Part shown: one piece after another, positions 30,898 to 33,381 of the stretch
How the letters are laid out: each line of letters opens with the position of its first letter
Position numbering within the stretch: position 1 is the first letter of the stretch
NCBI RefSeq assembly: GCF_005063415.1
Contig: NZ_SUEG01000001.1
Coordinates: forward strand, 1-64,000
DNA from: Mesorhizobium sp.
GTDB taxonomy: Bacteria; Pseudomonadota; Alphaproteobacteria; Rhizobiales; Rhizobiaceae
DNA length: 64,000 nt
Direction: 5' to 3'
Program-made: the position numbers and the translations under genes
Notes under the pieces: model-generated
Told to the model about the DNA's origin: nothing
The model's database searches: none
The model's input: the letters and a program-made list of their open reading frames with translations, nothing else

Positions 30898-31983
30898 TTG
30901 CGCGTCGATCTTTTCGACTTCGATCTGCCGGAAGAGCGCATCGCGCTTCGCCCAGCCGAACCGCGCGACAGCGCCAGAATGCTGGTGGTCAGGCCGGGTG
31001 AGGGGCTCGAGGACCGGACGGTGCGCGACCTGCCGTCCCTGCTCAAGGCCGGTGATGTGCTGGTCTTCAACGACACCAAGGTCATTCCGGCGCAGCTGAA
31101 GGGCATCAGGCGGCGCGGCGAGGCGGCGGCGCAGGTCGAAGCCACGCTGCATATGCGGACGGCGCCCGACCGCTGGCTCGCCTTCATGCGTCCGGGCAAG
31201 CGCGTCGCCGCCGGCGATCGCATCCATTTCGGTCATGACGCCAATTCCTGCTTTCTCGGCCAACTCGATGCGACCGTGATCGAGAAGGGGGAAGGCGGCG
31301 AGGTGCTGCTCGGCTTCGACCTGTCAGGTCCGTTCCTCGACGAGGCGCTGCATGCCGTCGGCCACATCCCGCTGCCGCCCTACATCGCCTCCAGGCGCGA
31401 CGACGACGAACGCGACCGCAGTGATTACCAGACCATTTATGCCAGGGAGGAGGGTGCCGTCGCCGCGCCGACGGCAGGGCTGCATTTCACGCCGGCGCTG
31501 TTTGCGACGCTCGACGCCAAGGGCATAGAGCGCCGTTTCGTCACGCTGCATGTCGGCGCCGGCACGTTTTTGCCGGTGAAGGCGGACGACACCGCCGACC
31601 ACAAGATGCACGCCGAAACCGGTTCGGTCAGCCCGGAAACCGCCGAGGCGCTGAATGCGGCGAAAGCAAAAGGAGGGCGCATTATCGCTGTCGGCACGAC
31701 ATCGCTGCGCTTGTTGGAGAGCGCGGCTGGCGAGGACGGCAGGCTGGCAGCATGGTCAGGCCCGACCGACATCTTCATCACGCCCGGCTATCGCTTCAAG
31801 ACCGCAGACATGCTGATGACCAATTTCCATCTGCCGCGTTCGACGCTGTTCATGCTGGTTTCGGCCTTCTGCGGTTTGCAGACGATGCGCGCGGCCTATG
31901 CGCATGCGATCGAGAACCGCTACAGGTTTTATTCCTATGGAGACGCAAGTCTTCTGTTCAGGAAGGATACCGATGGACGATGA
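30898..31983 (+). CDS. queA: S-adenosylmethionine:tRNA ribosyltransferase-isomerase
   Basis: 361 residues. Penultimate step of queuosine synthesis: transfers the ribosyl part of SAM to preQ1-modified tRNA. Family segments [17 protein letters not shown] at the start, [42 protein letters not shown] and the C-terminal [15 protein letters not shown]-type end are present. Starts with TTG 30898, the only possible start. Followed by tgt, the other queuosine enzyme. Confidence 0.95.
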
Positions 31984-32242
31984 CCTTGAAACCTTCGACC
32001 GCGAAGCCTTGATCGCCGAGGTCAGGAAACTGCGCGCCGGCATCCGCCAACACCGCGACGCCACCGGCCACGATCTGTGCTGGCATCATCCCGACCTGTG
32101 GTCGCTTTTGCCCGAAAAGACCGAGCCGGCGATTGCCGTGCCGCCGTGGCCGAAATTCATGCGCGGCTGCATCCGCTACCGCCAGTCGCTCGATAAGCAG
32201 GCTCCGGACGCGGCGGTATTCGACAAGGAGTTCGATGGCTAG
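31973..32242 (+). CDS. small conserved protein between queA and tgt
   Basis: 89 residues, ATG 31973 with GGAAGG upstream; overlaps the end of queA by 11 bp. Contains [16 protein letters not shown] and a [13 protein letters not shown] segment, with His and Cys in the first. No domain is recognised. Location inside a queA-tgt operon suggests a link to tRNA modification, but it could also be a hitchhiker. Confidence 0.65.
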
Positions 32243-32250
32243 GGAATTCA

Positions 32251-33381
32251 ATGACTAACGCATTCACCTTCACGGTGCTGGCGACCGACGGCAGGGCGCG
32301 GCGTGGTGTAATCACCATGCCGCGCGGCGAAATCCGCACGCCTGCCTTCATGCCGGTCGGCACCGGCGGCACGGTGAAGGCCATGTATATGGATCAGGTG
32401 CGCGGCGTCGGCTCGGACATCATCCTTGGCAATACCTATCACCTGATGCTGAGACCCGGCGCCGAGCGCGTGGCTCGGCTCGGCGGCTTGCATGAATTCG
32501 CCTGTTGGCCGTATCCGATCCTCACCGACAGCGGCGGCTTCCAGGTGATGTCGCTGTCGAAGCTGCGGAAACTGACCGAGAATGGCGTGACCTTCCGTTC
32601 GCATATCGACGGCGGCGCCTACGAGATGTCGCCGGAGCGTTCCATCGAGATCCAGGGGCTGCTCGATTCAGACATCCAGATGCAGCTCGACGAGTGCACG
32701 GCGCTGCCAGCCAAGGAAAAAGAGATCGAGCGCGCCATGGAGCTGTCGCTGCGCTGGGCCGAGCGCTGCAAGGCGGCATTCGGCGAGCAGCCCGGCAAGG
32801 CGATGTTCGGCATTGTGCAAGGCGGCGACGTGCCGGATCTGCGGCTGCGCTCGGCGCAGGCGCTGAAGGCAATGGAGCTGAAGGGCTATGCGATCGGCGG
32901 GCTGGCTGTCGGCGAGCCGCAAGCGGTGATGCTGGAGATGCTCGACATCACTTGCCCGGAGCTGCCGGCTGACCGGCCGCGCTACCTGATGGGTGTCGGC
33001 ACGCCGGACGATATCTTGAAGTCGGTGGCGCGCGGCATCGACATGTTCGACTGCGTGATGCCGACGCGGGCAGGGCGCCATGGCCTTGCCTACACACGGC
33101 GCGGCAAGGTCAATCTGCGCAACGCCCGCCATGCCGACGATCCGCGCCCGCTCGATGAGGAAAGCGACTGCCCGGCCGCACGCGACTATTCGCGGGCCTA
33201 TTTGCACCATCTGGTGCGCTCGCAAGAGGCGCTTGGGGCGATGCTCCTGACCTGGAACAATCTGTCCTATTACCAGCAGCTGATGCGCGACATTCGTGAA
33301 GCGATCGAGGCTGGCAGGTTCGCCGAACAAGCCGAGATCATCACGCAGCAATGGGCAAACGGTGACCTCGCCGTCCGGTAG
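32251..33381 (+). CDS. tgt: tRNA-guanine transglycosylase
   Basis: 376 residues. Exchanges guanine for preQ1 at position 34 of tRNAs with GUN anticodons. Catalytic Asp93 in [15 protein letters not shown], second active Asp in the [14 protein letters not shown] segment (about 267). The expected zinc motif CxCxxC reads S305-D-C307-P-A-A310 here, so two of three cysteines are replaced, although the following YLHHL His is present. The same is probably true for close relatives. The operon is queA - unknown - tgt. Confidence 0.95.

Follow-up and report, generated by a model that had tools for sequence, protein, structure and literature searches.

The window, a stretch of 64,000 nucleotides from a Mesorhizobium genome, contains the gene tgt for a tRNA-guanine transglycosylase (Tgt), its pathway neighbour queA and a small ORF between the two (Table 1). 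The tgt product was identified as a bacterial Tgt by a full-length match to the equivalog profile TIGR00430 above the curated cut-off (465.4 bits against 306.75, E 1e-139) and by a match to PF01702 (509.2 bits against 26.3). Among proteins of solved structure, Z. mobilis TGT is closest to it, and its nearest named relatives are Mesorhizobium proteins of up to 91% identity, with records very near the window possibly excluded. The preQ1-type pocket GGLAVGE is located at G216 to E222 and is invariant in the 55 rows of alignment A1. No other Tgt gene is present in the 6.17-Mb genome (G000), and a second, zinc-binding copy, as in a Zur-type zinc-sparing pair of paralogues, was thus not found there. 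An earlier, sequence-only reading of this DNA had noted queA in the operon region and presumed that queuosine is made; queA, the next enzyme of the pathway, indeed lies upstream of tgt, and with queC, queG and queF also encoded in the genome the presumption stands.

Table 1. Features of the tgt region in the window
Feature	Position	Strand	Basis or remark
queA, next pathway enzyme, upstream of tgt	30898..31983	+	NF001140, E 3.7e-145
89-aa ORF between queA and tgt	31973..32242	+	11-bp overlap with queA end; ends 8 bp before tgt
tgt, tRNA-guanine transglycosylase, 376 aa	32251..33381	+	ORF and profile matches; single copy in genome
D93, active-site Asp (Z. mobilis D102)	32527..32529	+	alignment to Z. 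mobilis TGT, survey
D267, active-site Asp (Z. mobilis D280)	33049..33051	+	alignment to Z. mobilis TGT, survey
Eroded CxCxxC, S305-D-C307-P-A-A310 (Z. mobilis C318/C320/C323)	33163..33180	+	translation, alignment to Z. mobilis TGT
'HHL' pair H319-H320; H320 corresponds to the dimer-interface residue H333 of Z. mobilis and is no zinc ligand	33205..33210	+	alignment, survey, accessible passages of PMC5395182
N336, at the position of the fourth zinc ligand (His349 in Z. mobilis)	33256..33258	+	alignment; column 336 is His in 158/158 three-Cys sequences

The small ORF encodes an HDLCWHHP motif and gave no Pfam or NCBIfam match. Twelve of 25 genomes from the same genus have it (a 13th at E 9.5e-4 only), as against none of 16 others of the order. 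We rejected it as a compensating neighbour, since it is confined to the genus whereas the loss of zinc ligands described below is order-wide.

The structural zinc of TGT ties the CxCxxC loop to the following His-bearing helix, beside the dimer-interface helix. For the Z. mobilis enzyme we take the ligands to be C318, C320, C323 and H349. In this part of the chain a window residue n aligns with Z. mobilis residue n+13, so that the four ligands fall on S305, C307, A310 and N336, and the ligand set CxCxxC...His of the zinc metalloprotein is replaced by S/C/A/N in the window Tgt. The segment reads S305 (AGC at 33163), D306, C307, P308, A309 and A310, in agreement with the coordinates, frame and motif given by the sequence-only reading. 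That reading had further left one cysteine and a nearby histidine in place. The cysteine, C307, is indeed kept; the histidine had been misassigned, since H319 and H320 form the 'HHL' of the dimer interface and the fourth ligand, the His of "T-x-H-N", aligns with Asn336. The survey of distinct sequences, comprising 326 Tgt rows (168 eroded and 158 intact) with a divergent low-similarity group kept outside these rows and outside all trees, is in line with this assignment: column 320 is His in 326 of 326 sequences, while column 336 is His in all 158 sequences with three cysteines, without a single CCC row lacking it, versus 29 of the 168 eroded ones. Judged by alignment, three of the four zinc ligands are therefore lost in the window Tgt, not two. 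In the available passages of the literature, TGT zinc is bound by three cysteines and a helix-borne histidine, printed as His248 in the QTRT1 paper (PMC6165067), and Z. mobilis His333 is part of an aromatic hot spot of the dimer interface together with Trp326, Tyr330 and Phe92 (PMC5395182).

The survey covers the window's phylum, with genomes chosen from the best-scoring matches listed, a selection which favours high scores. Within the window's order, where 60 of 146 matching genomes were retrieved, mainly one per family code, all 64 genomes read are eroded (45 family codes). Named loci give the same picture: among the 80 that best match the window protein, which are not a random sample, 64 of 64 from Hyphomicrobiales are eroded, as are one from Geminicoccales and one from Parvularculales; five from Rhodospirillales, one from Rhodobacterales and one from Acetobacterales are intact, and seven without an assigned order divide into five eroded and two intact. 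A tgt gene was found in 270 of 289 genomes of the class. From its other orders 117 genomes were read, 85 with an intact and 33 with an eroded copy, one contaminated bin having both; by family code, 14 of 85 are only eroded, 70 only intact and one is both. Two loci (L258 and L274) scored as CCAH by the aligner, where letters stand for positions 305, 307, 310 and 336, show CxCxxC by eye with a one-residue insertion and were counted as intact. Outside the class, but within the phylum, 64 of 64 genomes are intact (63 by script, one by eye). Since erosion lowers the score and the listed matches are the best-scoring ones, nine further low scorers from outside the class were also read, of which eight are intact and one (G329) was left unscored, giving 72 intact genes out of 72 readable ones. 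In G329 tgt is found in two frames (L342 and L344, covering profile positions 5-291 and 284-365, the latter with a stop), which is either a genuine break or an assembly error.

The divergent group of 30 low-similarity genomes from the class comprises 25 with CCCH, one ambiguous case (L358, CDGECC) and four clear losses, LISH (L365), ISSH (L370), GSGH (L374) and CLIY (L369), so that ligand loss extends beyond the main lineage. All 30 of these genomes have Asp at positions 93, 147 and 267. Column 320, read in 38 more divergent sequences (the two G329 pieces uncounted), is Tyr in five and otherwise His. Several bins contain two tgt matches. Both copies were read in G191, where both are eroded (L123 and L144, L123 being identical to L121 of G119), and in G201, which has an intact copy on a very long branch (L002) and an eroded one (L126); we do not trust these as pairs of zinc and non-zinc genes, the bins being 8-10% contaminated. 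Erosion had been described as a property of one protein, and an alignment of Tgt across Rhizobiales had been proposed as a check. As far as these alignments go, it belongs instead to the whole order, with further losses in the class, and an order-wide state is more than chance.

The extent of the loss varies among the 168 distinct eroded sequences: three ligands are kept in 2, two in 25, one in 124 and none in 17, and all five named Bradyrhizobium Tgts belong to the last kind, with Trp at 307. Single-loss forms exist in two different families, CCSH (L138) and CCLH (L124). C307 is retained in 147 of the 168, so some constraint on the site persists. A search of the zinc segment for Cys or His enriched by at least 30 points in the eroded sequences over the 158 intact ones found none. 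Elsewhere in the chain H277 and, to a lesser degree, H118 (165/168 eroded versus 106/158 intact) are enriched, and D312 is present in 111/168 versus 16/158.

Codon 277 (33079-33081) encodes a His in place of the Thr or Asn of intact enzymes (150/168 eroded versus 1/158 intact). It is located in an R-x-G-R-x-G stretch after the active-site Asp and changes three times on the tree; a change in tRNA contact is possible from this position. Columns 277, 46, 145, 364 and others which differ between eroded and intact sequences could not be tied to erosion, as only four independent pairs were available among the results listed; with these four pairs, D312 changes the same way as erosion in 1.9, a figure that carries no weight as evidence. 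Two loci of one family (L279 and L326, code f198) read S-x-N-x-x-C, with the first and second Cys and the His gone and a Cys at 310, which has perhaps been regained.

The retained C307 and the enriched H277, D312 and H118 could be taken as signs of a rebuilt site, in which metal is kept by C307 and other groups such as H277, D306, D312 or water. We consider this unlikely. H277 aligns with Z. mobilis N290, outside the zinc segment, and since it changes only three times on the tree it mostly marks one clade; the zinc segment itself shows no newly enriched Cys or His, 17 sequences have none of the four ligands, and the five named Bradyrhizobium proteins among them have Trp at 307. The suggestion of the sequence-only reading that the enzyme binds zinc differently or not at all can thus be upheld, with the ligand counts and the absence of replacement ligands in the segment favouring 'not at all'.

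Residues 310 and 336 covary. Among the 168 eroded sequences His336 accompanies Ser310 in 28 of 49 cases and Leu310 in 1 of 5, but Ala or Thr310 in 0 of 110. The tree test used 166 rows and gave eight independent pairs with a difference in His336; Ser310 differs in the same way in 6.2 of them, in the opposite way in 0.2 and not at all in 1.6, which is marginal (median p 0.03, range 0.016-0.22). With the roles exchanged, 17 pairs differ in Ser310; His336 changes along with it in 5.5 of these, stays the same in 11.5 and goes against it in none. Five neighbouring columns tested likewise on this tree showed no comparable trend. Two runs on smaller sets were unable to reach significance; L199 and L201 were left out of the 166-row test and of one of the smaller ones. 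Of the losses in the divergent group, LISH and ISSH agree with a Ser-His pairing, whereas GSGH, with His336 beside Gly310, and CLIY do not. Taken together, we hold with moderate confidence that 310 and 336 are in contact once the metal is gone. Five Rhizobiaceae loci (L051, L059, L061, L065 and L066) have His336 beside close relatives bearing Asn, always with Ser310, which suggests that His336 returned in a Ser310 background.

For the number of origins, trees were built without the zinc columns from sets thinned by identity (at 86% for one set and at 66% for the 69-row set, the latter leaving out L002, L199, L201 and rows with many gaps). The label eroded or intact changes 8 times on a 153-row tree and 6 times on the 69-row tree (6-8 over bootstraps), with at least 4 changes forced by starred branches in either case; deep branches are weakly supported and the number of losses is approximate. 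When all 33 eroded rows were held as one clade, the log-likelihood was 96 lower (p-AU 0.0004). A single origin is rejected and loss has therefore recurred, so that on these trees ligand loss in Alphaproteobacteria has more than one origin. A single ancestral loss that was spread by horizontal transfer would account for the recurrence of similar S-x-C-x-x-[AS] patterns in distant families, and the weak deep branches leave some room for it; however, the rejected clade, the changes forced on the trees, the separate single-loss forms and the different patterns of the divergent group (LISH, ISSH, GSGH, CLIY) all argue for repeated loss and make transfer improbable.

The gene is under purifying selection, with dN/dS of 0.08-0.17 against ten near relatives, on the strength of which decay was rejected, and the raw N/S count, summed over all pairs of the eleven, is lower in segment 300-344 than in the whole gene (0.32 versus 0.55). 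Window D147 aligns with Z. mobilis D156, which we take to be the base-binding Asp. That the catalytic Asp residues are kept, as had been read from the sequence, is borne out: the positions of D93 (Z. mobilis D102), D147 (D156) and D267 (D280) are Asp in 168/168 eroded and 158/158 intact sequences. Across all 326 sequences D264, Y317 and H320 are likewise invariant and F83 and Y313 mostly kept, so both the active site and most dimer residues are intact. The pocket G216-E222 is invariant in the eroded sequences save for Ser219 in 4, a residue also present in 40 of the 158 intact ones. An AlphaFold2 model has a mean pLDDT of 92.7 (93-97 per block over residues 301-340) and superimposes on Z. mobilis TGT entries with an rmsd of 1.2-1.7 Å among the 50 matches listed, although the method is little sensitive to such substitutions and the model is not informative on stability. 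The model alignment leaves out L094, which has a stop in frame.

Published work within the order, as far as its text was accessible, points the same way. A queuosine-dependent HeLa phenotype of S. meliloti is lost on mutation of queC, queF or tgt, and preQ1 rescues the queC and queF mutants, not those in tgt or queA; the evidence consists of phenotypes, and the word 'boronate' is absent from the text available (PMC3568095). When the B. henselae Tgt was supplied to an E. coli queDF tgt mutant, Q-tRNA-Asp came back in part, as seen by APB Northern, at preQ1 down to 10 nM (PMC11570991). Four Bartonella loci and one Sinorhizobium locus of our set are S-C-A-N; these are congeners, not the published proteins. 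By this analogy the Tgts of the order appear to keep working. A decaying gene or an inactive enzyme, with queuosine coming from elsewhere, is very improbable: it has in its favour the loss of three ligands in an enzyme stated in a Metallomics paper to require zinc for activity (accessible part of PMC9508795, citing Chong 1995), but it conflicts with the sole tgt of the genome, the low dN/dS, the active-site Asps in 168/168, the largely present remaining pathway (queC, queF, queG, queA) and with the S. meliloti mutants and the complementation by the B. henselae enzyme.

We therefore propose, with a probability of roughly 0.8, that the window protein is a functional Tgt which inserts preQ1 but lacks the structural zinc of its family, with a pocket that would be held by ordinary side-chain packing. 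Alphaproteobacteria would have given up the zinc tie between loop and helix several times. In the main lineage the third cysteine was presumably lost before the first, with CCSH and CCLH as existing intermediates, and this may have left a Ser310-His336 pair, probably hydrogen-bonded, at the place where Cys and His formerly bound the metal together. Later, in Hyphomicrobiales, Ser310 would mostly have been replaced by Ala or Thr and His336 by Asn, Ile, Val or Ala, leading to a packed pocket. Loss of ligands might thereby spare zinc. Against a zinc-free protein we count the retention of C307, where a weak or different metal site is conceivable, and the only partial complementation by the B. henselae enzyme in the accessible text. 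The wider statement, that Tgt shed zinc several times within a class-wide elimination of zinc from the translation apparatus, usually via a Ser-His hydrogen-bond stage, has in our view an even chance of being correct; if it is, TGT is not intrinsically a zinc enzyme. The natural series CCCH, CCSH, SCSH and no ligand presents a structural metal site dismantled while the enzyme is kept, supplies ready test pairs and cautions that rhizobial Tgt should not be presumed to carry a zinc site.

Compared with the Z. mobilis and E. coli enzymes (TIGR00430, PF01702), the window Tgt shares the fold, the active-site Asps, the GGLAVGE pocket and the hot-spot residues Y317 and H320 of the dimer, and differs in S305, A310 and N336, which replace C318, C323 and H349. 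The B. henselae enzyme comes from the same order and has the same pocket numbers, 216-222, in the accessible text, with S-C-A-N in the four Bartonella loci; that study, however, concerns the substrate (preQ1 or queuine), and its main text contains neither 'zinc' nor 'cysteine' (PMC11570991). 'Zinc' is likewise absent from the main text of a second Bartonella paper, and no mention of missing Tgt zinc ligands was found in the titles, abstract openings and opened passages of the literature searched, with subscription papers mostly outside it. Queuosine has been linked to metal homeostasis (PMC9508795, passages available). According to the accessible part of the S4 paper (PMC3087516), zinc-free forms have taken the place of nearly all zinc-binding ribosomal proteins in Alphaproteobacteria, a trend which a zinc-free Tgt would fit by analogy; there, however, C+ genes were replaced by C-minus genes, with transfer in the case of S4, whereas tgt was altered by substitution in its only copy. 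QTRT2, the non-catalytic subunit of eukaryotic TGT, is likewise a TGT fold missing a hallmark, but as a mirror image: in the passages available it retains zinc but no longer has the catalytic Asps (PMC6165067).
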